From a virus: a stretch of DNA of 46,959 bases. Of the stretch, positions 11,131-43,554 are shown in pieces (the stretch's first letter is position 1; each line of letters starts with the position of its first letter). The stretch lies in the IMG/VR virus record IMGVR_UViG_3300025132_000065, positions 1 to 46,959 of that record. The stretch is one strand, 5' to 3'. Made by a program: the position numbers and the translations under genes. The notes under the pieces are model-generated. The model worked only from the letters and a program-made list of their open reading frames with translations, searched no databases and had not been told where the DNA came from.

Positions 11131-11737
11131 CGTCTGGCTCAACATCTATTATTTTATCTTTGTTTATTTTAACAGCACCATCACCACGGTCTGCCTTTGC
11201 GTTATTTAAAATACTAATGTCTATCTGCAACTTGCCTGAACCCCCTGCTGTACGTGCATTTAAACCTAAATTCCTACGTATTAACTGATCTAGCTCAGAC
11301 AGTTCTTTAACTGTACGTGGTCCTCTAAGGTTTTTCATGCTGTCTCGCAGGAGTTTTATAGCGGAGGCAGCTACATAAGATTGATACTTTTCTGCTGGAG
11401 ATGATTGTGATTGAGCAATCTCCATAAGTTTCTTGTCCTCATCTATACGAGCTTCCAGTTTAGCTTCTTTTATAGCCTCATCTGTTTTACCTTCTAGGTT
11501 ATCATCAAGTGTTGACTGTAAAGGATCTTTATTTTCTTTTACTTCTTCTACTTCTTTCAGAGATGGGTTATTTGCATGAGGATCTTTTTTTGGTTTTGCA
11601 CCCTCATCCCTTAACCATCTACGGAGAGTAGACACATTGATTCCTAACTCCTTCGCAATAGTAACAAGTTTATATTGCTGCTCGTACATTTCGAGAGCAT
11701 GTTTAAGCAGCTTAGATTTTTTAGATTTATAAGCCAA
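11117..11737 (-). CDS. Terminase small subunit candidate (HTH protein)
   Basis: 206 residues. A helix-turn-helix near residues 24-45 (LVTIAKELGINVSTLRRWLR) is followed by an acidic, charged linker and a helical region with AEKYQSYVAASAIKLLRDSM, perhaps for oligomerisation. A small terminase would recognise the packaging site and load the large subunit. The gene lies head-to-head with terL with 43 bases between them, which is unusual since the two are normally co-linear. A transcription regulator is the alternative reading. Confidence 0.6.
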   Translation of the reverse strand: MAYKSKKSKLLKHALEMYEQQYKLVTIAKELGINVSTLRRWLRDEGAKPKKDPHANNPSLKEVEEVKENKDPLQSTLDDNLEGKTDEAIKEAKLEARIDEDKKLMEIAQSQSSPAEKYQSYVAASAIKLLRDSMKNLRGPRTVKELSELDQLIRRNLGLNARTAGGSGKLQIDISILNNAKADRGDGAVKINKDKIIDVEPDDDKS

Positions 11738-22800: not shown

Positions 22801-25800
22801 TACCAGTAGAAGATGGCGAATTGGATGGTAAGTACAAACTTATAGATGGTGCGATGGAAGCAGGAGCTACCATCATCATGGATGAGCTATCACATATCAC
22901 GAATAAAAGATATAGAAATTATCTTAGTAAAGGTGAAGTAGCACTTGCAGATTATGTAGAAAATAATGGTTATGTAAGAGTAGGGAAAACAGGTGAGTTT
23001 GTTCCTAAAACAAAACAAGAAAAAGATGTAGAACTTTCATATAGTTTTATACCCGACTGGTCGAATGGTAATGTCATCACAAGAAAAGTTAAATACAAAG
23101 ATATCAATAAACTATTAGATACTCTTGATAGTAAGATTGAGTTCAATGATGAACTAAGGAAGGGAGACACTGAGGGTGTTGGTTACACTTTAAGTGTGGA
23201 ATTAGAAGCTGTAAAAGCTGCCAAAGAGCAACATGAGTTAAGTTTAAAACTTAACGATATTAATGATGAGACTACTGAATCCCAAATAAGAAGCTTGTCA
23301 CCTGAAAAAGCTTTTGAATCCTTGGATGATATTAGTCAGGAAGACTTATTAAAACTACAAAACCTCTTGGCAGATCTTAGTTTAATAGGACAGCTATTTG
23401 GTGTTGATGTCAGACTAGTATCTGATGAACAAAGGAAAGCAGCTCAAGAGTCAGGACAAGAAATAAAACCTTTTAGTTTTGTTACATCTGAGAGCGGAAG
23501 TTTTGTTCAGATAGAACCTAGCGAACTAGGTAATTTAGTTGATGGCTTATCAAATAGAAATGCAAAAGCATTAACATCTTCTGTAATGATAGAAGAGATA
23601 ATACACGCAGCCACTTTCGCTGACTTCACTACAGAAGAGATCTCTGCTTTGTATGGGGAGATGCCTCAGTCAGAAGTTAATCGTGTTATAGATAACTACT
23701 ACCTAACGGAAGCAGATAAGCAAGCTGCAAGAGCAAGGCTCACAAGTGAAGATCCAGATGTAGTAGCTAATGAACAAAGAACATTAGGTAAAGAGGCATT
23801 GCGTATGTATGCACAACGTGCCTTAAAAGGATTTACTACAGAGCAAGACAGAGCATTCTATTTAGAGAACCCTAATATCTTTGCAGCAATTCTTAGATAC
23901 TTAAAAGGAGTTGTAAACAGAATAACTTTTGCTCTGAGAAGAGATTCAGAAAACCCTTATATGTCAATGGCAGTTAACAGGGTTGTCCAAGCTTACAACG
24001 ATATGAAAGCTGGTTATCAAGTAGAGCCTATACCTATGTTTGATCCAGACAATCCTTTAAGGGTAGTGAAAGCTTTTACAGGACACACCGAAACTTCAGA
24101 AGCAGATGCTGATATAGCCCCAGAAGTTGGTACTATAATTGAAGTCACCGAATCTCAGACAGAGGGTAACACTACAACAGAAGTTAATACAAATAGAATA
24201 TTCAAGCATGGTAACCTGACAGGTATGTTAACAATACCTGTTATGAAAACAGGTAAGTATCGTGGTGCTTACAAAGGCATAATGTCTTGGATGAATGCGT
24301 TAGTCGGGTCACCAGACCCAAGATTGCAAAGGCTACACCAGCAATCAGTCTCTCTTCGTAATGCTGTATTTAATGAAATACAAAATTACAAAGATAGACT
24401 AGACCAACTAGTTGCTAAGTTATATCCAGATGGGGATGCTCCTGTAGATTTATTTAGAAGTATAACAGGAGACGCTGAAGTTTTAAGACTTGATCCAAAG
24501 ACTACTGACTTTCTTAATAAATTTTTTGATACTAAATTGAAAAGAATGACTCAAGTCTTGGCAGCTCTTAATGAGCAGAGGGTTCAAGAACCAGACAACA
24601 AAGAGCTACAGGCTAATATAAAAAGATTAACAGAGGATATTAAGGATTTAGATAGTCAGAAATCTACAGCTTTTAATAGGGCTTATCAAAATAAAAGAGC
24701 CTTGCTTGAACAGAGAAGAGAATATGCTATCGAACAACTCGGTGGTTATGATGAAAACGGAAACCCTAAATCTGAAATAGTTAGGCATCTACTTGCCCTT
24801 CGTGGGAAGACAGATGAGTTCTCTAAAAAGATAGGGGAGTTATTCCCTAACGATCCAGAAATTAAAAAACAATTAAGTGCTACCATTGATGCAAATCTAG
24901 AAGTGTATCTGACAAGATCATATAAGTTATTTTCAGATGCAGGTTTTGCTGATCAAGTAATGTACGATAGTAAGTACACTGAAGTACGTAATGAAGCTGC
25001 TGCATTCTTTGCGGAAGAATATAAAACCCACAGAGCTACGCAAATTATTTTAAATAAAGAACCAGATGCCCAAGGTAATCTTGTCACTAGAATAGAAGAC
25101 GCAAGAAAAATAGCTGAAGAAGAATTGGTAGCAGACCGAACTAAGTCTCCTTCTGATCAACCACCACTCATACACAATATGATGGCTTCTTTCTTAAACT
25201 CGTTTTCAAACAAGGATAACTTGTTTACAAAGAACAGAGGGTTGCAACTAGTAGAAGGGGAAGATCTTGCTAGGCGTATGGGCTTTGCACATATATTAAA
25301 AGAGCGTCTGTTAAAAAGGAAAGATATCCCACAACAGTTGAGGGCTTTGATGGGTGAAGAAGGTGATGCCACTGGTTATGATGCAATCATGCGTACATAT
25401 ATGCACGTTGGTATTATGGCATCTCACCAAGCCTACTTGAAAAACGTATTAGACTTTGGCTTGAAAGAAAAGAATGGATGGATAATTGAAGAGGATGTTC
25501 TTCTAAACCTACCAGATGACGAGAAGTTTGAGATCGTCAATGGGCAGCAGGTAAACCGCTGGGAACAAATCTTTGCAGACGGGGATGCTCGCTTCGACCC
25601 TTGGGTAAACGTGACTACAGGTAAGAAGTACTACGCCACTAGAGATCTGAATGAAGCTTTAAAACTTTTAGGTAACAGTACTAAGGTAGCTTTAAATGAA
25701 TCTGAGATTGTCGCCACTCAATTAAATAGGATGGCTTTTAATCTGACAGGTCTTTCAATGGCAACTAAGACTTTAGGTTCTATAGGATTCTACCTAAGAA

Positions 25801-27515
25801 ACATTCTAGGTAACGTAGTCTACTTTGGTTTGTCTCAAGGAATGATAGCACCTATAAGGTATACAAAGAATATGGGTAAAGAACTCTTACGCCATAGAGG
25901 TATATACTCAGGTGAAAGGTTCAAAGCCAGCCAAATTAAATTGGATGAGTATTATGCTGAACTAGATTCTTTAGATATTATTGGTGACGAGATAAGACCT
26001 AAAATGCTTGATGAAATATTCAGAGGGGAGACTACTCCAAATGAATTGATGGATGAGGTCTACAGAAAAACAAAACAGATAGATGAATTAACTGATGAGA
26101 ATACAAAAGAAAGTGACCTAAAGAAAATAGGATCACCACTTAACAAACTATATACTTCTCTTAAAGAACTATCTGCTGTTGTTGATACTTTCTACAAGAT
26201 ATCTTACTACGAAAATGAATTGTCTGTTTTAAATAAAGCAAAGGAGAGAGGCGAAGGTAAGTATGCTACAATGACAGATTATGAAATCAAAAGGGAAGCT
26301 GCTGATAAAGTTCTAAGGACTGCTCAATCATATAGTAGATCTTCACCTTTAGTAAGGGGTTGGACTAAGTCTTCCGTTGGAGTTATGTTCGCTCCGTTCA
26401 TTCGATTCAAGGGAGAGATAGTCAGGATATCTATAAATACAATCCGCCTCGCTGTAGAAGAGATGAAGGATCAAAGCCCTACTATAAAAAGGAGAGGTGC
26501 TTTGAGGCTTTCAGGTTTCCTCGGAACAACAGTTGGTCTATCCGCAGTTGGTCCGTTGATAGCTCGTATGATAACTGATGTAGATGATGAAGAAGAAGCT
26601 GCCCTTAGAAGAACTTTAGTCGAGTACTTGAGGGGGCATACTTTCATAATGTACAGAGAAGATGGTGAGCTAAAAACTTTGGATCTAACATACGTAAACC
26701 CATACGCTATGTTAGCTGATCCTGTACTACGTTCAGTTGAGAAAGGATTCAGAGGGGAAAGCCCAGCATCTATGGCAATGAGTTTTATAGAAGGTTTGAT
26801 ATTTAACGAATACTTAGATGACCAAATCTTTGCAGGGGGATTGTTAAGTTTAAAAGCAAACAGAGATCCTCAAACAAATAAAAAGATATGGGAGGAGAGA
26901 GACGAAGCTGAAGATGTATTTATCAAAGGGGCTTCATTCCTACTTAAAGAAGCTTTGGAACCAAGGACAATAAAAGCTGGTCGGGAAGTCGCTAAGATGA
27001 TTGGCACAAACCCTGTCGAAGAAATCTTTGAGCGTATAGCAAAAGAATTTTATCCTGCTAAACCATACACAGTAGATATCTCAAACAACATGAGGAGATA
27101 TCTATTTGATGTAAGAAGAGAAACACAGAACATATCGTTAAGGAAAAACAAAGTACTGAGTGATAACCCAATCACTGATGCTGAAATGAAAGCTCTCGTG
27201 ATCGATGAGATAGATCATCGAGTCAGGCTAGATAAAGAGGTAGCTCATACACTTAAAAACTTAGCGTCTCTTGGTGAACTATCAGATCAAGATGTTAAAA
27301 AAATAGTATATGGATCACAGTTTGGAAAAAGAAGATATGGGTTTTTATTGCAGGGCAAAACAGAAACCCCAAGAGAAACTCACAAAGGTTTGAAAAAGAA
27401 ACTAAGAGATAAGTACAGACTTACCGAGAACAAAGAGTTCCTCAGAAGGGAACGCTTGCTTGATGCTTACTTTAAAAACTTACCTAGATTCTACTATCAC
27501 AACAGAGAAGATTAA
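16812..27515 (+). CDS. Giant multidomain virion (polyvalent-type) protein, 3567 aa
   Basis: GTG start at 16812. About 400 kDa. Visible regions: hydrophobic segments near 477-502 and 735-765; a zincin-like HEKAH (950-954) followed by a KLGH; a DUF4326-like domain with HFGNPF (1542-1547) and YKMWLRG, then NHAQILRDYV; a SLOG-like (LOG/molybdenum-carrier-type) nucleotide-binding region with ANTGNYKSSDVVFV (from 1973) and EAGATIIMDE; a degenerate second zincin motif EEIIHAAT (2261-2265); and a C-terminal part with NILGNVVYFG and FAPFIRFKGEIVRI, common in such giants. Five copies of an 80-100-residue module lie between 1250 and 2150. It is probably injected with the DNA. No RNA polymerase motifs are found. 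Confidence 0.86.
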   Translation: MTGELITDSSGDDAYSNPLPFYKWGDSIGSNITDDKDKLIGYGNYLREFEFERGALDSDAEAAISGLINNEIAQIDPEYRPTLDSGTVDTDANLLFEAFGQEAKDNYYNALENGAKREDFSAEVNEAKQHLVEHGSLSLASLRRKGADGSISYELIGDSNILDSKKAVASALSRGAIRHSDMWQVARGMKEIYSGVNSFKAIRDNQVRSEFSAASQAEDKELYNEVLKDAKDYFINNKEETDPSALITKARTLLAKGYSSSRDIGENVSRNRFQDSDIMDALEQVASFEAYQKGEVDFISDVNKLGENIKVTKNGAVIAHSELIFDRGKFDAALELRTDLNTNQKTSLRNYRKDFFTRQFPQYDELFRDSTVEKKWGTAKIDGKQKGLSNGQILERFIADPKNYSGAKNRLGAIGDSIADSFTGLAFVIPALFENQAAIDALVEQDEDRQNRRAVAEIFGDKFGLGMDVSTAIAPMVVDITATVLLSTGTLGTGGALYIAGKQGVNLTAKGAIKTVTGSVLKKRFGETTEQAAKRLTDAGIFTKGSNAADVQKAIDGFNRSLTRTVTKKKGKETIERQASSYLVSGVQTSALFVTAANRSAGATYATVYGNLEGTHEEKHDAAFGAAMMAGTATGLITAGFSSVGAGGFEDVFLRGITAKQHKSLLERMLRTKIAQSQYGNLMREYLSKRIKEVVPQRFTGLYRRFLQSGTQEFFEEGVDEFVNSFIVDAALNEDTPMIDRVTGAMYAGLVGGIIGQGAAGVRSIAEKQGAFSKGQLEMVRQDEEQQLIKFLKDNNSPLTAEVMERITLAQLRTPASKATDTEYETFIGQAIAATEEIARRKKAAEDTKIKITENTKDTSGKLGSTPAVSTKTTESIDGEPTTEAEAEVVLYTTNIANDFNAKEPLPYLSGKIDSPTSEQKKKVFEEVDLAKFKKALGSVERYIEFIKEHEKAHIKLGHNVNYPKDENDNPDLTNEIAIEYEKEANIEAAKALDIDWGSLQKRKDTADMPTAPEGADLDAQNEQLIEDMDNLDKQSIAENYGLELEEEAQQKANKLNISKAEAKTPTEKFDTEGEPILEDTYFPSGEELNDILSAVRDENGFDEVSEDDFDSVATEDDKYDKVEVYRMAIEDYGGGVMDLTEEEIQAMKIEINKLIAKYEKYDPETRNEVFAEIGGDVIIEAYNEIVKRRGQFIQNGYQEYDPTEDEEGLTEKIAYDQRARKNFERFEKEFAVEEERKVESKDDTKEPLRASDVYITYSYINYDNELSKRAVRLVDANSRIKELEEQIENFDASVRDDSVEILESQIRAIKESIDAHLETVPLKTKPVLKQVGYAKEVPEGQGDTFEVSSEGTSVGKTFSPKNATIKYKQAIELLRSLGIPISRKLGFLQKDGKANKGIATIEDLYQAAKGTGKGQKAESDKFRYYEVYKGLWKIYFDNNEEQLGVIGEASSGKILTDKFAQKPTRANNFGINVNSQARAIHDILVEKKLRDPYTLKYVGDTTPDNQQKSPEVVYKKGPAAVRAAAAKGEGINTLRQEGEQHFGNPFSDLPKAKTRDTIKTGTLDETLRFYKMWLRGVDFEVEVEGGENYKINEVKQERRKWVLDQINQGKLDGQKLLYHKAGGLNHAQILRDYVLEVRGFALEQETTEASKPLNINIRYTWGENDPETNTTESTDSVKLNDADAKIKELKEKLASDTEAYDVGSDFGTDRFIDRNYLEDSKARIASLEKAVAEVRGRGSDFSLEQETTAPSKPVDSTLRYKYTYTSVDGTKEITSDIQNIQIEEASKVLEQLRKDVAQIDHTLEFYGGFYNDNDLTREKIQKLGHIEGLQQAINEYDQAIFEPEIGQPITYSYTFFDPEVGFSERTTKTLSFPEAKARLEELDNIDAPTDIAVAQANEQEAQSLRPLVEIYENKILQRATTKDIETFSNVSAKRHVPKEQVKTRKATQFIGDGAAGSSTDNYRRMYEIRGRANTGNYKSSDVVFVASNGLRKDAIIPVEDGELDGKYKLIDGAMEAGATIIMDELSHITNKRYRNYLSKGEVALADYVENNGYVRVGKTGEFVPKTKQEKDVELSYSFIPDWSNGNVITRKVKYKDINKLLDTLDSKIEFNDELRKGDTEGVGYTLSVELEAVKAAKEQHELSLKLNDINDETTESQIRSLSPEKAFESLDDISQEDLLKLQNLLADLSLIGQLFGVDVRLVSDEQRKAAQESGQEIKPFSFVTSESGSFVQIEPSELGNLVDGLSNRNAKALTSSVMIEEIIHAATFADFTTEEISALYGEMPQSEVNRVIDNYYLTEADKQAARARLTSEDPDVVANEQRTLGKEALRMYAQRALKGFTTEQDRAFYLENPNIFAAILRYLKGVVNRITFALRRDSENPYMSMAVNRVVQAYNDMKAGYQVEPIPMFDPDNPLRVVKAFTGHTETSEADADIAPEVGTIIEVTESQTEGNTTTEVNTNRIFKHGNLTGMLTIPVMKTGKYRGAYKGIMSWMNALVGSPDPRLQRLHQQSVSLRNAVFNEIQNYKDRLDQLVAKLYPDGDAPVDLFRSITGDAEVLRLDPKTTDFLNKFFDTKLKRMTQVLAALNEQRVQEPDNKELQANIKRLTEDIKDLDSQKSTAFNRAYQNKRALLEQRREYAIEQLGGYDENGNPKSEIVRHLLALRGKTDEFSKKIGELFPNDPEIKKQLSATIDANLEVYLTRSYKLFSDAGFADQVMYDSKYTEVRNEAAAFFAEEYKTHRATQIILNKEPDAQGNLVTRIEDARKIAEEELVADRTKSPSDQPPLIHNMMASFLNSFSNKDNLFTKNRGLQLVEGEDLARRMGFAHILKERLLKRKDIPQQLRALMGEEGDATGYDAIMRTYMHVGIMASHQAYLKNVLDFGLKEKNGWIIEEDVLLNLPDDEKFEIVNGQQVNRWEQIFADGDARFDPWVNVTTGKKYYATRDLNEALKLLGNSTKVALNESEIVATQLNRMAFNLTGLSMATKTLGSIGFYLRNILGNVVYFGLSQGMIAPIRYTKNMGKELLRHRGIYSGERFKASQIKLDEYYAELDSLDIIGDEIRPKMLDEIFRGETTPNELMDEVYRKTKQIDELTDENTKESDLKKIGSPLNKLYTSLKELSAVVDTFYKISYYENELSVLNKAKERGEGKYATMTDYEIKREAADKVLRTAQSYSRSSPLVRGWTKSSVGVMFAPFIRFKGEIVRISINTIRLAVEEMKDQSPTIKRRGALRLSGFLGTTVGLSAVGPLIARMITDVDDEEEAALRRTLVEYLRGHTFIMYREDGELKTLDLTYVNPYAMLADPVLRSVEKGFRGESPASMAMSFIEGLIFNEYLDDQIFAGGLLSLKANRDPQTNKKIWEERDEAEDVFIKGASFLLKEALEPRTIKAGREVAKMIGTNPVEEIFERIAKEFYPAKPYTVDISNNMRRYLFDVRRETQNISLRKNKVLSDNPITDAEMKALVIDEIDHRVRLDKEVAHTLKNLASLGELSDQDVKKIVYGSQFGKRRYGFLLQGKTETPRETHKGLKKKLRDKYRLTENKEFLRRERLLDAYFKNLPRFYYHNRED
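21732..22078 (+). repeat. Duplicated linker and module inside the giant gene
   Basis: The linker reads ALEQETTEASKPLN near 1645 and SLEQETTAPSKPVD near 1746, each followed by an R-Y-x-Y/W strand and a coiled-coil segment. At DNA level TTTAGAACAAGAAACAAC is shared (about 21737 and 22041). This marks a fairly recent internal duplication of one repeat module of the giant protein. Confidence 0.7.
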
Positions 27516-33195: not shown

Positions 33196-34361
33196 TATGC
33201 TTTGATCATCTTAGGGTTGAAGTATGTTGCAGGAAGTGTTTCATGCTTAGTTGATAATAGGTTGTGTCCTATCTGTGCATGATAGTCTAGTTCTCTGTCA
33301 TCAACTACTTGTGACAGCCACTTTGCGAATCCTGCTTTTGCATCTGCACCAGCTCCGAATTCACTTGATGTGTACTTCTTCCATGATCTAGATTCTGTAC
33401 CATCATCATGTCCTGTACCTTCTCCACTTGTGTAGTATTGAGTAACTGCATTGAAGAGATCGTATAGTGTTTCTCCTTTGTTACCGATACCATTTTCGTG
33501 TAGATATGCTACGTCTACAATTTGATTGAAGGCTCTAGTAGACATGATTGTGTCAGCACTTACTTTGATACCTTTGTATGCTGATATTAGTGCTTCAGCT
33601 TTTTTGTTATCGCATGCTACTTCAGCGAACTTATTCATCATATGGACGAATTGATCTCTACCTTTGTAGATGTTAGCAATGGTACGTCCTGCTTCATCAA
33701 GTCTAAGATCTGCATTAGCAGTTTTCTTTATCTTGATTGACAAGTCACCTTGATCTGATAGTGCATACTTGAATGTATTTGCACATACAACTCTTGTGTT
33801 TGAATCAAACATTGTCATTGCATATGAACCATCGTGTGACTGTAGTAGGTTTAGATAGAACTGGAAGATATCTCCATTGATCAATCGGTCTGCATCATCT
33901 GCAATTTCTATTGATGAGAAGAATAGTTTTGCGTTCTTTAGTGTACCTAATGTTTGTATACTGTAATCGATACCTTCATCATCTAGTGAGTTGCATACTG
34001 CTTGCACTAGCTTTTGGTTAGGTATTGATTTGTATCGTGTTGATGGTACTCCAAGTCCGTATCGGATGCCTTCAAATTCTCTGGTGAGTATCTTGTTTTC
34101 AGGACACTCTGACCATGTATTGATAAGCTCCATGATGGAGGAATGTGGGAGTCCACCTTGTCTTGCTGAGATGTCTAAGATTTCTTTTCTTAGATCTGGG
34201 TTTACATCTGCATATGCAGTACCTTCATCTATGTTGAAGTATACATTGCGGTGATCACTATCAATGATTTCTTTTGATAGTTCTGGCTTTATGACTTGTA
34301 GGTCATGCCATTCTTTTTTAGTGGATATTACTGTATCAGTATGTTCGATTTGATGTGACAT
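33195..34361 (-). CDS. DUF932-family protein
   Basis: 388 residues. The region with FDSNTRVVCANTFKYAL matches the R.VCANT core of DUF932 proteins (phage/plasmid-like), together with GIRYGLGVPSTRYKSIPNQ near the N-terminus and KAGFAKWLSQ near the end. DUF932 proteins are common on plasmids and phages. Some act against host defences or in replication control, but the function is not settled. It lies in a dense leftward operon. The leader holds an 8-bp hairpin (34401-34423). Confidence 0.82.
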   Translation of the reverse strand: MSHQIEHTDTVISTKKEWHDLQVIKPELSKEIIDSDHRNVYFNIDEGTAYADVNPDLRKEILDISARQGGLPHSSIMELINTWSECPENKILTREFEGIRYGLGVPSTRYKSIPNQKLVQAVCNSLDDEGIDYSIQTLGTLKNAKLFFSSIEIADDADRLINGDIFQFYLNLLQSHDGSYAMTMFDSNTRVVCANTFKYALSDQGDLSIKIKKTANADLRLDEAGRTIANIYKGRDQFVHMMNKFAEVACDNKKAEALISAYKGIKVSADTIMSTRAFNQIVDVAYLHENGIGNKGETLYDLFNAVTQYYTSGEGTGHDDGTESRSWKKYTSSEFGAGADAKAGFAKWLSQVVDDRELDYHAQIGHNLLSTKHETLPATYFNPKMIKA

Positions 34362-34400
34362 AGTATTTATTTTTTTATTTTGTATTTATATGTTGTTGAT

Positions 34401-34423
34401 TATGATGAAGTTGTATCATCATA
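34401..34423 (-). promoter_or_regulatory. Perfect 8-bp hairpin before the DUF932 gene
   Basis: TATGATGA 34401-34408 pairs with TCATCATA 34416-34423, loop of seven. It follows the stop of the 189-residue gene and has no T-run on the minus strand just after it. It may be a weak terminator or a leader structure. Confidence 0.45.
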
Positions 34424-34431
34424 AAATTGTA

Positions 34432-35001
34432 TTAGTATTCTCTTGCAAGTTCTTGTAGTAGATCAGCGACTCTGCTTGATGTTTTCTTTAGCTTTTCAGT
34501 AGATAGCTTTACTTCTTCATACATTAGATCTTTTAGTTCTAGTATGTTTGAATCAATTCTATTGAGTTCTTCTTGCATTGATTCTTGATCTGTTTCTGGC
34601 ATGCGTTCATATACTAGCTCAGCTATGTCAGATGTATCAAAGTGTTCTGCAATTTCGCTTGGTGAGAATTGATCAGCTACTTGATATGATAGATCGTTAA
34701 GGTCTATTTTGTTTGCGAGACTTTCATGATCAACTTCGTACGCAAGTTGATCGTAGTTGATACCATCTGCAATGGTTTCAAGTGCTGAGTCATTGTCTAG
34801 TATGTTGTCTGCAACTATTTGAACAGTTGTTTCACAGAAGTCTTTGTCTTCTGATATTTCATCTGTGACATCTTTTATGATGTCTTGTTTCATAATAAGT
34901 TCTTTTGTAATATTTTTTACAGTGATGTTTGCTCTGTTGATGATTGCATCAAGGAGTTTGTTTTTGATTGCTCTGAATAGAGCTATTAGTTTATTTTTCA
35001 T
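34432..35001 (-). CDS. Helical repeat-like protein, unknown function
   Basis: 189 residues, very acidic in the middle, with repeating short units of the form '..YEVDHESLANKIDLNDLSYQVADQFSPSEIAEHFDTSDIAELV' type (about 85-130; pieces: YEVDHESLANKI, DLNDLSYQVADQF, FDTSDIAELVYERM). N-terminus basic (MKNKLIALFRAIKNKLLDA), C-terminus a coiled coil. No known family. The repeats look like a register of amphipathic helices. Confidence 0.7.
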   Translation of the reverse strand: MKNKLIALFRAIKNKLLDAIINRANITVKNITKELIMKQDIIKDVTDEISEDKDFCETTVQIVADNILDNDSALETIADGINYDQLAYEVDHESLANKIDLNDLSYQVADQFSPSEIAEHFDTSDIAELVYERMPETDQESMQEELNRIDSNILELKDLMYEEVKLSTEKLKKTSSRVADLLQELAREY

Positions 35002-35019
35002 AGTTGTTCTTTGTTGAAA

Positions 35020-35340
35020 TTAATCTTCGTTAAGTGGATCGAGTTTGAATTTTTTAGCTACTTCTTTTTTGAGTAGTGGACTGAAGTAATGTGAACCTTC
35101 GTTGCTGAAGCGGATACCTACGTCAATGGTGTGTTGGTAGTTTGGATTATAGAATCTGTATGCATCTACTTCTTTACCAAATTGTGTGTAGTGTTTTAGA
35201 TACTTTTCTATAGCGTCTTCTGTTAACCTCCTTTCTGGTTTGAGGTGCATGTTTGATTGGTACGCTAATGCTTTTATAAGTTCATAAAAGTCAATGGGTA
35301 CTGCATGTGGGTAGTGTTCTGTTGTCCAGTATGTTTTCAT
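35020..35340 (-). CDS. Small protein, unknown function
   Basis: 106 residues starting MKTYWTTEHYPHAVPIDFYE, with TEDAIEKYLKHYTQFGKEVD in the middle and SHYFSPLLKKEVAKKFK at the end. Start overlaps the next upstream gene by four bases. No motif recognised. Confidence 0.68.
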   Translation of the reverse strand: MKTYWTTEHYPHAVPIDFYELIKALAYQSNMHLKPERRLTEDAIEKYLKHYTQFGKEVDAYRFYNPNYQHTIDVGIRFSNEGSHYFSPLLKKEVAKKFKLDPLNED

Positions 35341-35654
35341 ATTAAGTTGATAGTGTCAGGATTGTTTTTTAGGATGTGTTTGATGTGTTCTGCTATGTAT
35401 ACACCGAAGTCATCGATGTTATTGAGATGTACATTTCTTTGATTGTGTGCCATTGCGAATGCATTGGTATCCATTAGAGCATCTTTGATGGGGTCATCAT
35501 CTTGTGGATAGTAGTCCCTACCATGAAATGTAGATGCTTTGATTTTTTCTTTTAGTGCTTCGATAGATACTGCTATCTCGTAGTATTCACGTAGGAGTAC
35601 TTGATCTGAAGTACCGTTGGGATGTATTGTTGGTAGTATTGTGTCGTTAGTCAT
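35337..35654 (-). CDS. Small protein, unknown function
   Basis: 105 residues. A helical segment LLREYYEIAVSIEALKEKIK, then a loop with DYYPQDDDPIKDALMDTNAF and a C-terminal helix. No catalytic motif that I can defend. Overlaps neighbours by four and eight bases. Confidence 0.68.
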   Translation of the reverse strand: MTNDTILPTIHPNGTSDQVLLREYYEIAVSIEALKEKIKASTFHGRDYYPQDDDPIKDALMDTNAFAMAHNQRNVHLNNIDDFGVYIAEHIKHILKNNPDTINLI

Positions 35655-35835
35655 TTTTTTTTGTCTCAGATGCTAATTGATTGTAGACTTTGGCGTAGTG
35701 CTTCCTGAGTCTTGTGTATTTTGATTTCTCTTGCTTATATTTGAGGCGATTTGTAATCGCCTCAGTAATTGCAATGGCAGTGGTAACTAGGATTAGTAAC
35801 GTGACTATGTCGTGTGTGTCTAGGTGGATGTTCAT
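35647..35835 (-). CDS. Small membrane-anchored protein
   Basis: 62 residues. A transmembrane segment at about 10-27 (IVTLLILVTTAIAITEAI) is followed by a basic helix (NRLKYKQEKSKYTRLRKHYA). Layout like the 30481-30678 gene. Leader carries the 11-bp hairpin at 35863-35890. Confidence 0.68.
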   Translation of the reverse strand: MNIHLDTHDIVTLLILVTTAIAITEAITNRLKYKQEKSKYTRLRKHYAKVYNQLASETKKND

Positions 35836-35862
35836 AAGTTATTGATTTTGAATTTAAGTTGT

Positions 35863-35890
35863 GGGAGCCACTGGATTGCCAGTGACTCCC
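35863..35890 (-). promoter_or_regulatory. Hairpin between two leftward genes
   Basis: GGGAG 35863-35867 with CTCCC 35886-35890 and CACTGG 35869-35874 with CCAGTG 35879-35884, one C/A mismatch and a 4-base loop. It sits in a 63-base gap with no T-run. RNA processing or stability element is more likely than a terminator. Confidence 0.6.
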
Positions 35891-35898
35891 GATTAATA

Positions 35899-36276
35899 TT
35901 AGCTGTTGACTCCAATGTATTTGGAGATGTCTGTCCCTTCAGGTAGCTTTTCTGAAGTATTGGTTTCCTTGAGTTCTGTGAGGTTGCCACAGAATGGAAG
36001 CAGATTATCATCCTTTTTCCTTTGATCTGCTTCTGCCTTTGTGATGTTGGGCAGGAGGCTGTGTGTTGACGACCTTCTGACTTGAGGATCATTACAGGGT
36101 GTGTATATCATTTTGAGCTTTACGGCTACTCGCTCCTGCCCCTGCTTGTCGGTGTATTTCTCAATTACGACTTTGTCGGCTGGGTATTTCGTGATGTCAA
36201 TTTCAACGTAGCCTCTGGTTGAACTGTAGTTGAACTTTGAGTTATCAGTGTCGTATGTTTCTCTTGTATCTTGCAT
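35899..36276 (-). CDS. First gene of the leftward operon, unknown function
   Basis: 125 residues. N-terminal half has beta strands (GYVEIDITKYPADKVVIEKY, ERVAVKLKMIYTPC). The C-terminal half is lysine/glutamate-rich with KAEADQRKKDDNLLPFCGNL. Possibly a small nucleic-acid-binding or structural domain, but no family is recognised. The palindrome-rich interval begins just upstream; promoters for this operon should be in it, but none is clear. Confidence 0.66.
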   Translation of the reverse strand: MQDTRETYDTDNSKFNYSSTRGYVEIDITKYPADKVVIEKYTDKQGQERVAVKLKMIYTPCNDPQVRRSSTHSLLPNITKAEADQRKKDDNLLPFCGNLTELKETNTSEKLPEGTDISKYIGVNS

Positions 36277-36313
36277 ATTATTTATTAGTTAAGTTTTTAT
36301 GAATACCAAATCC

Positions 36314-36336
36314 AAGGATAAGATATACTTATCCTT
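36314..36336. repeat. Perfect 9-bp hairpin AAGGATAAG / CTTATCCTT
   Basis: Arms 36314-36322 and 36328-36336, loop of five. It lies 38 bases before the first leftward gene and may be a leader hairpin for that transcript. Confidence 0.7.
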
Positions 36337-36348
36337 CTGCGAGCGATC

Positions 36349-36414
36349 TGGTTTGTCAGTGGGATGGAGGCGGGGGAAAGGCGGGGGAAGGGGTGGTGAA
36401 GGCTTGACAAACCA
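36349..36414. repeat. 10-bp inverted repeat enclosing a G-quadruplex-prone tract
   Basis: TGGTTTGTCA 36349-36358 pairs with TGACAAACCA 36405-36414. Between them 36361-36393 has four G-runs (GGG, GGGGG, GGGGG, GGGG) with loops of eight, six and two bases, including tandem AGGCGGGGGAA (36368-36378 and 36379-36389). Such a G-rich block stands out in an AT-rich genome. Confidence 0.8.
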
Positions 36415-36464
36415 AGGTTGGTGGATGAAGCTCGCCTGAATCCACTTCAATATAAAGGAGCGTA

Positions 36465-36615
36465 GTGTTCTGTTAGAATCGATGTATAAAACAGTGAAGA
36501 CTGTGAGCGAAAATCAAATTGGGCAGGGCTTTATAAGCGGACCCAGACCAATTTGATTTTTGTGAGCCAAGCTATCTTAACGGGTCGCTTTTATGCAACT
36601 ATTCTAACAGAACAC
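36465..36615. ncRNA. Long structured element closed by a 15-bp perfect stem
   Basis: GTGTTCTGTTAGAAT 36465-36479 pairs perfectly with 36601-36615. Inside are ACAGT/ACTGT (36491-36495 with 36500-36504) and a 13-bp perfect stem, AAAATCAAATTGG 36510-36522 with 36548-36560, which G-U pairs could extend outward by three. The pattern of one closing stem and inner hairpins is like a folded RNA or a cruciform DNA. Strand of transcription is unknown. Confidence 0.6.
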
Positions 36616-36623
36616 GCAGCGAC

Positions 36624-36692
36624 CAAGATGCGAGCGAGTATCTTGTCCCAACGTGGAATAACAATAGCCCATAGGCGCAGGGAGCACCGCCT
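36624..36692. repeat. Two short hairpins after the 15-bp structure
   Basis: CAAGAT 36624-36629 with ATCTTG 36640-36645 (loop ten), and AGGCG 36673-36677 with CGCCT 36688-36692 (loop ten). Each is modest alone; the clustering with the other palindromes is what matters. Confidence 0.5.
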
Positions 36693-36789
36693 GTACGAAT
36701 TACAAGTGATGTTTAAAATAGTTAGTACACTAGAGCTAGAGTGATGTAACCAATACCATTAAATACAGGGCAGGTGGTGCGTGTAGTTC

Positions 36790-36838
36790 TTCGAGCACTA
36801 GAGTGATGCCTAAGTTATTGCACGTTGTAGTGCTCGAA
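36790..36838. repeat. Perfect 11-bp inverted repeat
   Basis: TTCGAGCACTA 36790-36800 pairs exactly with TAGTGCTCGAA 36828-36838, loop 27 bases. The left arm runs into CTAGAGTGATG, also present 62 bases earlier at 36736-36746. Confidence 0.75.
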
Positions 36839-36877
36839 AGTTCTAGCGTGTGGATTCATGCATTATGTATAAGGAGT

Positions 36878-36965
36878 CCTGATTCATTAGTTATCAATCA
36901 TGGTACAGGAATCAGGGTTCAATGCAATGCGGGCAACATGAATCATTAATCATGAATCAGGATTC
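36878..36965. repeat. Cluster of GATTC/GAATC palindromes with the GGTACAGGAATCA motif
   Basis: CCTGATTC 36878-36885 pairs with GAATCAGG 36909-36916; GAATCAGGATTC at 36954-36965 is an imperfect palindrome; ATGAATCA recurs between. GGTACAGGAATCA lies at 36902-36914. Related short sequences occur at 28.1, 31.8 and 38.1 kb. Confidence 0.6.
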
Positions 36966-37159
36966 CGTAGCCGTGCAAAAGGGGCGTATGGTTCATGGAT
37001 CACGTGCCGTGTATCGCTTGCGTTGTGTTGTATTGGTTATGCCTAGAATGTATCGGATACGCTACGGGTGGGTGGTGCGTTTTTTGTGGGTCTTATACTT
37101 TATATATGAGGGCTTTGAGAAAAAATTTGACTTATTTTTGCCCGCTCATATTAGTAAAT

Positions 37160-37408
37160 ATGGCAGATCTTAAAAAACAAGAATATTACAAAAACAACAA
37201 GAAAAAAAGGCTAGAGTACCAACGTAAGTACTACGAAATGAACAAAACTAGTATCGCTGAAAAACGAGAAAGGGAGAAGGCTGAAGACCCAAAGTGGAGA
37301 GAAAAACAGAGGGCTTATAATCGAGCTTACTACCTACAGAACAAAGAGCGTATAATGGAGCAAAGAAGGCTCAAGAAACAGGGTACAGAAAACCGCTCAC
37401 AAGAATAA
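37160..37408 (+). CDS. Small highly basic protein, unknown function
   Basis: 82 residues from ATG 37160. Two similar stretches, EYYKNNKKKRLEYQRKYYEM and then QRAYNRAYYLQNKERIMEQR, form a charged helix rich in K, R, Y and N. This 'YY..NKE.I..+R' pattern occurs in N-terminal parts of some phage HNH or GIY-YIG nucleases, but no nuclease follows here. DNA binding is likely. The open frame extends upstream into the palindromic interval, where it looks non-coding. Confidence 0.62.
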   Translation: MADLKKQEYYKNNKKKRLEYQRKYYEMNKTSIAEKREREKAEDPKWREKQRAYNRAYYLQNKERIMEQRRLKKQGTENRSQE

Positions 37409-37441
37409 GCGGGTATTTGCCAAAGAAGCGGGAACAAAGAA

Positions 37442-37471
37442 TTGACCATATGGATTTTAAGCGTCTATATT
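37442..37471 (+). promoter_or_regulatory. Possible promoter for the portal-side operon
   Basis: TTGACC 37442-37447, 18-base spacer, TATATT 37466-37471. It lies in a 230-base gap upstream of the 37639 gene, and the transcript would carry the 16-bp hairpin (37507-37563) in its leader. Match is moderate. Confidence 0.4.
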
Positions 37472-37506
37472 ATTTCCCAAAACTTTTTCTAATAAATATG
37501 AAAATG

Positions 37507-37563
37507 TCTAATACAGTTTGTAATGTATGTATATACAATGTAAAGGCTACAAACTGTATTAGA
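37507..37563 (+). repeat. Perfect 16-bp inverted repeat
   Basis: TCTAATACAGTTTGTA 37507-37522 is an exact complement of TACAAACTGTATTAGA 37548-37563, with a 25-base spacer that itself contains the palindrome GTATATAC. It lies between two rightward genes. No T-run follows directly. It could be an operator bound by a dimer, a leader hairpin or a terminator for the upstream gene. Confidence 0.82.
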
Positions 37564-37638
37564 AGAAAATAACATTATCTATATTAATATATGTAATATG
37601 TATTGATTCAATTTCTTTTCTGTGCTACCTCTTTTGTT

Positions 37639-38103
37639 ATGGAAAATCTATTAGAAAAAACTGAAAGAAGACCTATTCCCAAAACAAACTATGAAATAGA
37701 CCAACATGGGTTTATTTACAACAAAGGTAGGCGTTTAAGATCTCAGTACCAAAACGGAAGGTGGTACAGCAGGATATACAGAAAGTCAGGCAAGCTTGTT
37801 ACGGTAGACACCGAAAGACTAGCTGAATTGATTTTCAGCGACGAGAACCCCCCAGAATTGACGAGAACCATGATTGAGGATCAGATGAAGGCTCGACAGG
37901 TTCCAGAGTATCCTCGCTACTCTGTGACTGAATATGGGGCAATCTACTGCATGGTCCCTCCCAAGAGGGGTCCAAACTCAGGGAAGATGTATCTTGTCAG
38001 CGAAAAAACAAATACAGCGGGTAAGCAATACGTAGCCCTGTACGACTACGAAGGATGCCGTCGTTATGTACAAGTTCAACATATCGTGGACTCTGTATGG
38101 TGA
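37639..38103 (+). CDS. Protein with two NUMOD4-like modules and no nuclease
   Basis: 154 residues from ATG 37639. Two similar halves: NYEIDQHGFIYNKGRRLRS then RLAELIF, and RYSVTEYGAIYCMVPP then VQHIVDSVW. The 'Y.I...G.IY.......G.....L.....' pattern is that of NUMOD4-like modules, which help homing endonucleases bind DNA. No HNH or GIY-YIG core is present, so this may be a remnant or a DNA-binding regulator made from such modules. An in-frame start at 37603 would add 12 hydrophobic residues. The stop lies in an inverted repeat. Confidence 0.66.
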   Translation: MENLLEKTERRPIPKTNYEIDQHGFIYNKGRRLRSQYQNGRWYSRIYRKSGKLVTVDTERLAELIFSDENPPELTRTMIEDQMKARQVPEYPRYSVTEYGAIYCMVPPKRGPNSGKMYLVSEKTNTAGKQYVALYDYEGCRRYVQVQHIVDSVW

Positions 38104-38142
38104 TCCCTGATTCATGATTCCTGACTCAAGGTACAGGGATCA
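38101..38142 (+). repeat. Inverted repeat spanning the gene end, with the GGTACAGGGATCA motif
   Basis: TGATCCCTG 38101-38109 (beginning with the stop codon of the previous gene) pairs with CAGGGATCA 38134-38142. Inside are TGATTCATGATTC and CCTGACTC. CAAGGTACAGGGATCA at 38127-38142 is identical to a 16-base stretch in terL (13475-13490). No U-run follows, so it is not a clear terminator. Confidence 0.65.
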
Positions 38143-38188
38143 GATTCACCCTTGTAGAAAGCTAAATTGGCCTTAAATTTATTGACTA

Positions 38189-40405
38189 ATGTATAATGAC
38201 CCAAAAGCCCTTCAGGAGTTGGATGGTTTAGCTGCTTTTGACGAAGACGGCAAACCGATGCAGAGCCGTATTAAAGATGTAAAAAGTGCGTTAAAAATAT
38301 TTGAAGGGCTTCGCAAAGCGGATGAGCAATCGTCTGTAAACAGAGCCAGAGTAGATGCGATGTTTGATGGGGCTAATCCCTACAATCAAGGGCAACTGAA
38401 TGCGAGCGGTCAGGGTCTTAAAACTAATTTGAATTTCGGAGAGGCTCAACGTCTTTTGGATATATCGCTATCTGCCTACGTAGACCTTTACTCTTCACTA
38501 GAAAAACTAGTGGAGGTAAAGGGTACGCAGGGAGAGCCTAGCGAGATTACTCAGCAGGAGGATATTGTTTCTGAGGAGATAACTCATTTGTTACGTAGTT
38601 GGCCTGATTTCCATTCCCACTACCTTCGTCTTTGTACGACGTTCATAAAACATGGTACAGGGATCACTTACTTTGACACGCCTGATGACTGGAAGTTTAG
38701 GGTGGGTAGTTTTGCTGATATTTTGATACCGAGGCAAACACCTGCATCTGAGTCGGCTATTGATGTAGCGATTGGTCGTAGGCAGTATCACATACATGAG
38801 CTATTTAATTTCATCAAAAACCCAAAAGCTGCTAGTAAGGTAGGTTGGAATGTTGAAGAGGTTAAGCGGGTTCTTTTGAAGAACGTGACTACACGGGGTC
38901 GTAGGAATCATAAGAATATTTATGATGATTGGGAGTCGTTACAGTCTGAGTTAAAAAACAACGACATACATGAAGGGTATCAAAACCCTACAGTATCTGT
39001 GTTACATTTTTGGGTACGTGAGTTAGATGGGAGTATATCTCATTACATATCTACGGAAAGCGATTGCAAAGATTTTTTATACAAGAAGATTTCCCGTTAT
39101 GAGAAGCCAGAACATGCGTATGTTATGTTTACGTATGGTGTAGGCTCGAATGGAACATATCATTCGATACGGGGGTTGGGGCATCGTATCTTTAACCACA
39201 TTCAGACGAGCAACCGCTTGCGTTGCCAAATGATTGACGGTGCGATGTTAGGATCGGCAGTTATGATTCAACCCGAAAACCAGAGGGCGTTAGATGAATT
39301 AGGGTTTACGTATTATGGAGCATATGCCGTCCTATCCCCCAACGTTAATATTATTGAGAAGGCAGCACCTAACTTGAGTACTGGTGTGCAGCCAGCACTG
39401 AACGACATATCAAATCAGTTAGCTTTGAATACTGATACTATTAGTACCTATGGACCTAATCAAAGTTCACCGTACAAGAATCAGATGCAGGTTGTTGCTG
39501 ACATGGATGTTAGTACTCGATTATCTGGTGCTTCCTTAAACCTGTTTTATGCTTCATGGAACAGGCTTCTTAAAGAGATTGTTAGGAGGATAGTAAACGG
39601 CAAGAAAGACAGAGAGCTTAACGAGTTTTATAGTAGGTGTGCAGACCGAGGGGTACAGGAATCATTTATCAAGACATTGGATTTGGCTAGAACAAAAGCC
39701 GTCCGATCTATTGGCAATGGCTCGTATGCGAATAGATTGGTTGCCCTTCGGGAGTTACAAGCTATATCAGGTTCGTTTGATGAGGTTGGTCGTAAGAACC
39801 TTACTCGTGATATAGTTTCTACTCGTGTCGGGCATGATTTAGCTGACAGGTATGCTCCTGTGGTAGAGGGTGCTCGCCCAACTGTTGATGGTAAGATAGC
39901 TTATCTTGAGAACCAACAGTTATCAGAAGGCATTTCTGTTCCTGTGGTTTCGACTGAATTACACGCAGCTCATTTAGCGGAGCATATTCCAGCTTTGACA
40001 GGGTTAATTGAGCGTTTAAATACGGGTCAGGCAGATCCGTTGCAGGTTTTACCTGCCTTACAAGCATTTTATGAGCATATTGCAATGACTGCGGAGCAGT
40101 TAGCAGGAGATCCTATGCAGCAAGGTTTGGTTGGTCAGGCTAAACAAGCCCTTCAATTTGCAGAGGAGATGATAAATAACACCTCAAAACAAGTACAAAA
40201 GATGCAGCGTGAGGCTGCTGAAGCGGGTGGTACTCCTGAAGGTGGTGAAGATCCTGCAATGACTGCTAAAATGCAGGAGCATCAGATGAAAATGCAGATG
40301 GCACAACAAAAAGCTGAACTTGACATGCAGTTAAAACAAGCCAAGTTTGAGCAAGAGCAAGCATTGCGTGATGCGAAGACCGCAATGGACTTGCAAAAAC
40401 AATAA
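38189..40405 (+). CDS. Portal protein
   Basis: 738 residues of the large podovirus-type portal. The N-terminal wing has EAQRLLDISLSAYVDLYSSLE, with DGANPYNQGQL before it; then VSVLHFWVRELDG, YVMFTYGVG and SIRGLGHRIFNHIQTSNRLR, a helical stem region; the C-terminus is a long Q/K/M-rich helix (about 670-738). It forms the dodecameric ring at the head vertex to which terminase and tail bind. Identification rests on overall pattern, size and its place ahead of scaffold and capsid genes. Two copies of the GGTACAGGRATCA motif lie in it, in different codon frames. No ribosome site precedes the ATG. Confidence 0.84.
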   Translation: MYNDPKALQELDGLAAFDEDGKPMQSRIKDVKSALKIFEGLRKADEQSSVNRARVDAMFDGANPYNQGQLNASGQGLKTNLNFGEAQRLLDISLSAYVDLYSSLEKLVEVKGTQGEPSEITQQEDIVSEEITHLLRSWPDFHSHYLRLCTTFIKHGTGITYFDTPDDWKFRVGSFADILIPRQTPASESAIDVAIGRRQYHIHELFNFIKNPKAASKVGWNVEEVKRVLLKNVTTRGRRNHKNIYDDWESLQSELKNNDIHEGYQNPTVSVLHFWVRELDGSISHYISTESDCKDFLYKKISRYEKPEHAYVMFTYGVGSNGTYHSIRGLGHRIFNHIQTSNRLRCQMIDGAMLGSAVMIQPENQRALDELGFTYYGAYAVLSPNVNIIEKAAPNLSTGVQPALNDISNQLALNTDTISTYGPNQSSPYKNQMQVVADMDVSTRLSGASLNLFYASWNRLLKEIVRRIVNGKKDRELNEFYSRCADRGVQESFIKTLDLARTKAVRSIGNGSYANRLVALRELQAISGSFDEVGRKNLTRDIVSTRVGHDLADRYAPVVEGARPTVDGKIAYLENQQLSEGISVPVVSTELHAAHLAEHIPALTGLIERLNTGQADPLQVLPALQAFYEHIAMTAEQLAGDPMQQGLVGQAKQALQFAEEMINNTSKQVQKMQREAAEAGGTPEGGEDPAMTAKMQEHQMKMQMAQQKAELDMQLKQAKFEQEQALRDAKTAMDLQKQ

Positions 40406-41895: not shown

Positions 41896-42189
41896 ATGGC
41901 TAGGGCAAAATTCAAACGACTACCTTCAGGAAAGATCCTATGGAGAGGTGAGAAGTTTGCTGGGTTTAATAAACCAAAGAAAGCTCCTGCGGGGAGTAAG
42001 AAGAAGTTTATTGTGCTTGGTAAGCAAGGGGACAAGATTAAAAAAGTAGGGTTTGGTCATAGAGACTATCAAGATTTCAGACAACATAAAGACCCTAAGA
42101 GACGTAAAAACTTTAGGGCAAGACATAATTGTCAGACCGCAAAAGATAAAACAACCGCTCGTTATTGGGCTTGTAGAAAACTTTGGTGA
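41896..42189 (+). CDS. Basic protein with a conserved-type HNC...DKTTARYWACR end
   Basis: 97 residues, strongly basic (KFKRLPSGKILWRGEKFAGF, then KPKKAPAGSKKK). The C-terminus HNCQTAKDKTTARYWACRKL resembles a motif I recall in uncharacterised basic proteins of marine phages, with two cysteines. It may bind DNA in the virion. The gene overlaps the next by one base (TGATG). Confidence 0.74.
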   Translation: MARAKFKRLPSGKILWRGEKFAGFNKPKKAPAGSKKKFIVLGKQGDKIKKVGFGHRDYQDFRQHKDPKRRKNFRARHNCQTAKDKTTARYWACRKLW

Positions 42190-42368
42190 TGGCTAAGAAA
42201 AAATCAACAGTTAACAAAGCAGGTAATTATACAAAGCCTACGATGCGTAAGCGGTTGTTTCGTCAGATTATGGCAGGTACTAAAGGAGGCAAAGCAGGTC
42301 AATGGTCAGCACGTAAAGCTCAGTTACTTGCTATGATGTACAAAAAAAGAGGTGGGGGTTATAAGTAA
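42189..42368 (+). CDS. Small basic protein
   Basis: 59 residues from ATG 42189, coupled to the previous stop (TGATG). Composition is K/R/G-rich with KPTMRKRLFRQIMAGTKGGK, QWSARKAQLLAMMYKKRG. It is part of a run of three basic genes before the capsid; DNA-condensing or DNA-binding virion components are plausible. Confidence 0.72.
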   Translation: MAKKKSTVNKAGNYTKPTMRKRLFRQIMAGTKGGKAGQWSARKAQLLAMMYKKRGGGYK

Positions 42369-42652
42369 TGGCTTTAAAAAAGTCCCAGAAGTCCTTAAAA
42401 GATTGGACTAAACAAAAGTGGCGTACTAAATCTGGTAAGAAGTCCTCTGAAACAGGAGAGCGTTACTTACCTGAGAGGGCTATTAAAATGTTATCATCTG
42501 CAAAATATGCAGCAGGTACACGTAGGAAAAGGAAAGCTACAGCGGAGGGAAAACAAAACGCTAAGTATACAGAAGCGGAGAGAAAAGCATTTATCAGAGC
42601 AACTGGTAGGAAATACAAACCTAAAAAACTAAAAGAAAAAAATGAAAGGTGA
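42368..42652 (+). CDS. DUF5872-like basic phage protein
   Basis: 94 residues. LKDWTKQKWRTKSGKKSSET, GERYLPERAIKMLSSAKYAA and GTRRKRKATAEGKQNAKY match the pattern of DUF5872, a short basic protein family in phages and giant viruses, as I remember it. ATG overlaps the prior stop (TAATG). Nucleic-acid binding is likely. Confidence 0.74.
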   Translation: MALKKSQKSLKDWTKQKWRTKSGKKSSETGERYLPERAIKMLSSAKYAAGTRRKRKATAEGKQNAKYTEAERKAFIRATGRKYKPKKLKEKNER

Positions 42653-42887
42653 ACCACATTACTTAAAAGATGGGACTATTTATAAAGGAGAGTCGCATAA
42701 AATGCCTAATGGCGAAGTCCATACAGGGGAAGAACACAATGAAGATAGTGAAAAACTATTTCATTTTGACAACCTTAGTGACGAAGCAAAGAAAAAAGCA
42801 AAGGAATCTAAAAAAGAAGATAAAAAAGGAACCGCAGTTGTTATATCTTTTATGGATGCTGTGGAAAAAGGTATAAAGGAAAAATAG
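42642..42887 (+). CDS. Small protein with a HYLKDGT..KGE..KMPNGEVHTG motif
   Basis: 81 residues. It begins HYLKDGTIYKGESHKMPNGE, then VHTGEEHNEDSEKLFHFDNL, then a lysine-rich helix (DEAKKKAKESKKEDKKG). This opening is one I recall from other phage small proteins next to capsid genes. Function is unknown. Start lies within the end of the previous gene. Confidence 0.72.
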   Translation: MKGEPHYLKDGTIYKGESHKMPNGEVHTGEEHNEDSEKLFHFDNLSDEAKKKAKESKKEDKKGTAVVISFMDAVEKGIKEK

Positions 42888-42890
42888 CTC

Positions 42891-43184
42891 ATGGATACTA
42901 AAACGATACTATCTTTAGGGATAGGTCTTGTAGTACAGGCTGCTGGTATAGTGTGGTGGGCTTCTAAACTACAATCCGAAGTTCAACACAACGATTTTCA
43001 AATCCAGATGATTGCTAAAGATGTTAGTGAGAATTCAGAGTTTGTTAAACTTTGGCCCGCAGGTAAGTGGGGTTCTGGATCTTTACCTTCTGACGTAAGG
43101 CAAGATTTAAAAATAGGAATGTTAGAAATGGATATGGACAAAGTAATGTCGAAATTATACAACGGAGTACCGAAGGAGCCTTAA
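42891..43184 (+). CDS. Small membrane-anchored protein
   Basis: 97 residues. One N-terminal transmembrane segment (ILSLGIGLVVQAAGIVWWAS) and a soluble helix (VQHNDFQIQMIAKDVSENSE) then a short domain with LPSDVRQDLKIGMLEMDMDK. Role unknown. Confidence 0.7.
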   Translation: MDTKTILSLGIGLVVQAAGIVWWASKLQSEVQHNDFQIQMIAKDVSENSEFVKLWPAGKWGSGSLPSDVRQDLKIGMLEMDMDKVMSKLYNGVPKEP

Positions 43185-43185
43185 T

Positions 43186-43554
43186 GTGAAATGGCTGTTA
43201 ACAGCCCTGCTATTTTGCCTTCCCACAACAATTAGAGCAGATGATCATTGGGGAACTACACCACCAGTACCTGAAATAACTATAGAACATGACATCTATA
43301 GTGGGTGGATAACCCTTGGTTGGGTATCAGACTCTACTTTTGACCTCCCTATTTGGTATATTGTAGAAGTAAAACAGGTAGATGAAGATGGTGTTATAGA
43401 CCCAGAGTTCCTTTGGCACAGACCATTTGTACCAATACGCAGTAATTTCAACGAGTATATCTCGTTTAGATTACAATACAAAGATCTTAATGGTAAGATC
43501 TATGATTGGTTTCGGTCAGAAATGTTTAGGGTCAGGGTAATGTGGGGAGCTTAA
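43186..43554 (+). CDS. Secreted beta-rich protein
   Basis: 122 residues from GTG 43186, with GGAG upstream. MKWLLTALLFCLPTTIRAD is a signal peptide. The mature part is beta-rich, with fibronectin/Ig-like tryptophan-tyrosine strands (YSGWITLGWVSDSTF, PIWYIVEVKQVDEDG, EYISFRLQYKDLNGK). It should be exported to the periplasm, or be a virion surface decoration. It overlaps the convergent lipoprotein gene by four bases. Confidence 0.7.
   Translation: MKWLLTALLFCLPTTIRADDHWGTTPPVPEITIEHDIYSGWITLGWVSDSTFDLPIWYIVEVKQVDEDGVIDPEFLWHRPFVPIRSNFNEYISFRLQYKDLNGKIYDWFRSEMFRVRVMWGA

Follow-up and report, generated by a model that had tools for sequence, protein, structure and literature searches.

A conserved, promoter-like core beside a lineage-specific palindromic spacer in the divergent gap of an uncultured marine phage

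The 883-bp non-coding gap at positions 36277-37159 of the virus record IMGVR_UViG_3300025132_000065 is probably a regulatory region between divergent operons. Its functional core, at 37055-37159, appears to be a single-copy, rightward promoter of the sigma70 type that probably gives rise to a leaderless mRNA. The original prediction, in which the gap was a replication origin, a packaging signal or a set of structured RNAs, had not proposed a promoter, although the conserved part of the gap looks like one when the sequences of relatives are aligned. The window, i.e., the whole stretch of 46,959 nucleotides analyzed here, is a fragment of a genome of probably about 60 kb. It belongs to a phage group whose portal-like and terminase proteins have no match among about 50,000 named phage records. 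The late-type promoter proposed here is testable and would provide a route to the gene-expression programme of this uncultured marine group and to more of its members.

Results

Relatives, Host and Neighboring Genes

Relatives were fetched with a 738-aa protein (38189-40405, + strand), which is portal-like by its position and served as the anchor. About 67 IMG/VR loci were obtained at 50-99% identity, and the protein itself had no PHROG or Pfam match. The DNA of one of these loci, L003, was 92% identical to the window. No relatives were found among the named phages by tblastn with the portal-like protein and with the terminase, nor by a DNA similarity search, and the DNA polymerase gave only distant matches. 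The 738-aa protein also matched two MAG contigs, both labelled Verrucomicrobiota, and on the strength of these two bins the hosts of the group are probably Verrucomicrobiota. A K/R-rich protein of 82 aa (37160-37408, + strand), the first gene of the rightward operon with a probable leaderless start, was present in most relatives and was used to anchor the alignments. Farther along the same strand lies an HNH endonuclease-like gene (37603-38103; PHROG 959 and 6086).

Some other features of the window were recorded as well. A multi-gene block at 41896-43554 was flipped in L010, L020, L061, and L062 relative to the window, L003, L006, and L047, and in other relatives the first gene of this block was located after the terminase gene and a nested palindrome. 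The 3567-aa ORF at 16812-27515 had no Pfam match, and its only PHROG match was weak and to a family of unknown function. At 33500-36300 the GC skew of the leftward accessory genes was positive, which sets them apart from the window's other leftward blocks.

Bounds and Palindromes of the Gap

The gap contains no coding ORF. On its left a leftward ORF (35899-36276, minus strand) starts at 36276, and on its right the rightward ORF begins with a conserved ATG at 37160, so that both the bounds and the position at the divergence point of the two gene blocks were correctly predicted. The accompanying remark that the genes of this phage otherwise overlap holds roughly, but further gaps exist, e.g., at 37409-37602. 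All of the perfect stems that had been named (15, 13, 11, 10, and 9 bp) were found, six stems of 9-15 bp in total, and their density was indeed above chance. Counting stems of at least 9 bp with a loop of at most 120 nt, there were 5 in the gap, whereas 200 dinucleotide-shuffled versions averaged 0.29 and never exceeded 2; the 15-bp stem (36465/36601) has a loop of 121 nt and lies outside this count. RNA folding of the gap gave z-scores of -5.1 on the + strand and -4.5 on the - strand. The similarity of these values indicates that the signal is carried by DNA palindromes rather than by one RNA strand. Moreover, in 41 relatives stems of at least 10 bp were enriched throughout the region between -1.8 kb and +1.2 kb relative to the conserved core, and the palindrome richness is thus not limited to the gap.

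The palindromes, none of which is assigned to a strand, were compared with L003 one by one. The perfect 9-bp hairpin AAGGATAAG with a loop of 5 nt (36314-36336, arms at 36314/36328) was unchanged. The 10-bp stem TGGTTTGTCA (36349-36414, arms at 36349/36405) surrounds a GC-rich tract at 36368-36396, which had been noted in the original prediction and is real in the window; in L003, which alone among the relatives retains the interval, the tract is gone and the stem is shifted (TTGTCAAGGC, loop of 14 nt). In the nested palindrome at 36465-36615, which combines outer perfect arms of 15 bp (36465/36601; 27 nt at 89%) with inner 13-bp arms at 36510-36560 (36510/36548), every pair was the same in L003. 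An 11-bp stem TTCGAGCACTA with a loop of 27 nt is located at 36790-36838 (arms at 36790/36828). Finally, an imperfect inverted repeat of 33 nt with a perfect 11-bp core (36870-36969, core at 36877/36952) doubles as a direct repeat, and 26 of its 27 pairs were the same in L003.

The Palindromic Spacer Is Found in One Relative

The palindrome-rich spacer at 36277-37054, which has no strand assigned, was present in the window and L003 only. A search with the gene to its left (35899-36276) gave the L003 contig as the sole match. In L047, L004, and L006, which are also close, the DNA shared with the window begins at about 37060-37100 and the spacer is absent, while the remaining relatives carry palindromes, tandem repeats or genes of their own in its place. 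The expectation that relatives would keep the stems was borne out by L003 and by no other. Between the window and L003, substitutions affected 5 of 218 stem positions (2.3%) and 40 of 536 non-stem positions (7.5%; p = 0.006), and the same comparison within 36277-36870 gave 3/152 in stems vs. 38/417 in the others (p = 0.003). The proposed check for covariation turned out negative, with 0 double changes over the six gap stems in the one comparison possible, window vs. L003. These results suggest that the spacer palindromes are specific to a lineage and under some constraint in the lineage of the window and L003, where some structural role for the stems is possible.

About as much speaks for as against regarding these palindromes as by-products of the turnover of an accessory region, i.e., terminators, slippage repeats, and the remains of decayed mobile DNA caught between two operons. 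The set of palindromes and tandem repeats differs in each relative, and the stem density is also raised across the neighboring kilobases. The lower rate of change in stems than at non-stem positions (p = 0.006) argues against such an origin, but palindrome-directed repair could do likewise. This explanation of the spacer is compatible with a promoter in the core. It is unlikely, on the other hand, that 36277-37054 encodes one or several structured non-coding RNAs of the GOLLD/ROOL kind. The low fold z-scores and the slower evolution of the stems relative to L003 agree with this part of the original prediction. Against it, the stems lack compensatory change, the two strands fold to a similar degree relative to shuffles, and the interval was not found in relatives other than L003. 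Furthermore, an Rfam scan of 35000-38500 at E ≤ 5 returned nothing relevant, GOLLD and ROOL included, and no match was obtained in three relatives at gathering scores.

An attenuator in which the duplicated GGTGGTGCGT would pair with GCACCGCCTG was considered and rejected, since the first copy and its partner fall in the non-conserved spacer. Short tandem repeats were also seen directly upstream of the core in L044, L038, L039, and L025, or at the contig end in L111; the repeat words, among them (GTGACAGC)n, (ACCAG)n, (GGGTTCA)n, and the CAGGATTC/CAGGATAC type, differ per phage.

A Conserved Core With a Rigid Layout

The core at 37055-37159 (+ strand) is deeply conserved, with 0 of 105 substitutions vs. 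L003. It came to light as a block in the last 110 nt or so before the ATG when the relatives were aligned on the start of the K-rich gene. From left to right on this strand, it consists of an upstream CGCYAC box (37060-37065; CGCTAC in the window and CGCCAC in most relatives), a T-run (37080-37085), a TATATAT block (37101-37107), a UP-element-like A-tract (37120-37125) adjoining a -35-like TTGAC (37127-37131), and a -10-like sequence TATTAG (37149-37154) 17 nt past TTGAC. The layout was measured in 49 sequences that were selected for the presence of TTGAC and a CGC-like box and are non-redundant at 90% identity of the K-rich protein. With positions counted from the end of TTGAC, CGCCAC starts on average at -73 (sd 1.9), while the T-run is centered at -49 (sd 0.8) and TATATAT at -27 (sd 1.5); 14 of the contigs stem from the motif search itself, and these figures describe sequences that bear the element. 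A less biased measure was provided by 53 loci fetched by the portal-like protein and not by the motif, of which 42 contained ACGCCAC in the 450 nt preceding the K-rich gene, with 46 occurrences compared to 3.5 expected from the loci themselves. When the gapped pattern was searched over all viral contigs, with gaps free by 50 nt in total, 39 contigs were found and their spans were 73-74 bp only. Of 35 contigs, most contained each half of the motif just once. The information content was about 0 beyond -100 and 0.2-1.3 bits in the core, and the element was also found in the Opitutae MAG contig L109.

The positions of the -10-like hexamer and of the start codon were similarly regular. TATAAT-like hexamers peaked 17-18 nt after TTGAC, in agreement with the 16-18 nt of a sigma70-type promoter; 35 of the 49 sequences matched at at least 4 of 6 positions, no shuffle was as high, and the mean best match was 3.94 vs. 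2.63 in shuffled sequences. The hexamer is variable, with 14/49 sequences below 4/6, and is weak in some phages. A simple consensus promoter scan gave the core site no score. The ATG was 28-33 nt past TTGAC in 48/49 sequences. No conserved hairpin was found in the core. The T-run was also tried as a hairpin loop or terminator and rejected, as upstream stem lengths equaled chance and the flanks of the T-run paired only slightly above shuffled partners.

From this layout we infer that the core would fire rightward into the operon of the K-rich, HNH, portal-like, and capsid genes. CGCCAC, the T-run, TATATA, and the A-tract lie about 20-22 bp apart, approximately two helical turns, and would form a rigid upstream module that probably bends the DNA and seats the alpha subunits of the polymerase together with a putative activator. 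Transcription would start at or beside the ATG, in which case the mRNA of the first gene is probably leaderless.

Origin and Packaging as Alternatives

A rigid, AT-rich, single-copy element beside a promoter could equally be expected of a replication origin that is primed by transcription. The core and the repeat-rich spacer together would then be the origin, in which CGCCAC serves as initiator box, the T-run and TATATA as unwinding region, and the transcript of the promoter as primer. The single copy, the rigid spacing, the AT-rich blocks, the repeats and palindromes upstream, and the central, divergent position are all in line with this, but we consider it improbable. The upstream repeats are not conserved, and the conserved part runs on through the -35 and -10 to a fixed ATG. 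GC skew, which the original prediction had named as a check, switched from - to + at the core in just 13 of 30 loci and not at all in the window, and AT skew simply tracks gene direction; a skew switch is not shown by all phage origins.

That the gap holds a packaging site or the physical end of the genome (cos/pac) is very doubtful. The ends of nine long contigs fall at 0-1.5 kb on the upstream side of the core, which is above the expectation for random ends, and the HNH and portal-like genes come next. These ends, however, scatter from 3 to about 1450 nt, several lie in tandem repeats, two contigs show self-overlaps of 98 and 130 nt like circular assemblies, and other near-full-length contigs continue through. 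The pile-up was rejected as a sign of a genome terminus, as repeats and circular overlaps account for most of it, and the suggestion of a packaging signal was not supported. A promoter at the core is the preferred reading.

A Fast-Evolving Palindrome Downstream of the Promoter-Like Core

A hairpin with perfect 16-bp arms at 37507-37563 (no strand assigned) is the window's counterpart of a nested palindrome of about 72 bp in the relatives. Compared to L003, 17 of its 57 positions were substituted, whereas the remainder of the spacer in which it lies had 5 substitutions at 137 positions (p = 1e-6), and the changes in the hairpin included three double-compensatory pairs. In many relatives the nested inverted repeat lies between the K-rich and HNH genes (e.g., L043:5431-5503 and L241:3287-3359). 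Its commonest form is 73 nt long, and its outer arms AAAACTTTTCT/AGAAAAGTTTT and flanks of 9 nt enclose an AT-rich dyad of 14-16 bp. Among 27 ungapped sequences, 95% of cells were paired and 80 double-change cells were counted vs. 28.7 in shuffled sequences, while pairing fell to 47-59% in controls with slid partners. These 27 sequences were chosen by their outer arms and, mostly, by an inner stem of 8 bp or more, so that the count leans toward pairing; the pair of the window and L003 provides an independent check on compensatory change. Since a dimeric DNA-binding protein also makes both half-sites change together, the covariation does not prove an RNA hairpin. No Rfam match was found for the core element or the downstream hairpin.

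A second nested copy was located directly 3' of the terminase gene in 12/12 relatives read, and some relatives have a third one in their accessory block. Two copies of one genome share the inner dyad (97.7% identity) and also the flanks, in either orientation, whereas between genomes the inner part had a mean identity of 66%. The copy of the window at 37507-37563 is single and reduced, and its outer right arm is not kept; no second copy was seen in the window, itself a genome fragment, including the gap of about 46 bp that follows its terminase gene. Host chromosomes from the MAG's order gave a single match, which had no inner palindrome, and otherwise lacked the element. Judged by these comparisons, the downstream hairpin belongs to an ancient dyad-symmetric element that evolves in concert with the post-terminase copy in relatives. 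The concerted change of distant copies would fit either a co-evolving recogniser or gene conversion. We tentatively suggest, as an idea with more against it than for it, that the nested palindrome is a new kind of phage cis-element, of which each genome keeps two to three near-identical copies in either orientation that are rewritten as a set from one genome to the next by gene conversion or by a protein of fast-changing specificity (a recombinase, repressor or nuclease). The hairpin offers a clean natural case of concerted evolution in paired cis-elements, whose variable part is legible from sequence, and the nested palindrome could point to a protein whose DNA specificity changes quickly.

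Two more nested palindromes with other inner dyads occur in small Opitutae MAG contigs (L254:3436-3508 and L253:4123-4195), one near a primase-like gene and one near an HNH-like gene. The window also encodes a Holliday junction resolvase-like protein (10141-10647; PHROG 1770), a possible actor on cruciform-forming palindromes, and an HTH protein (11117-11737).

Discussion

The core resembles a sigma70 promoter with a UP element (phased A-tracts or alpha-CTD sites) in its TTGAC, its spacing of about 17 nt, its -10-like hexamer, the A-tract directly upstream of the -35, and further AT blocks at steps of about two turns. It differs in the fixed extra CGCCAC box about 40 nt beyond a normal UP element, in a start apparently at the ATG, and in its one copy per phage. 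As to the gap, the origin of Lactococcus phage c2 likewise lies in a non-coding stretch where divergent blocks meet, and it includes a strong promoter; here, however, the spacer is not conserved and a replication reading of the gap found no support. GOLLD and ROOL are similar as long, structured non-coding stretches in phages, but the gap has no Rfam match and is conserved in one relative only.

The nested palindrome can be compared with the lambdoid put/nut antitermination sites, which are also structured, two per genome, and near operon starts. The nested copies of one genome, however, hardly differ from each other, and both orientations are found. Among the systems compared here, the closest in behavior are the stoperators of Cluster A mycobacteriophages, a genome-specific motif that shifts between phages, 13 bp long, asymmetric, and found in up to about 30 copies (PMC6550527). 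The copies of the nested palindrome similarly share a motif within a genome that shifts between phages, but they are about 72 bp long, dyad-symmetric, and two to three in number.
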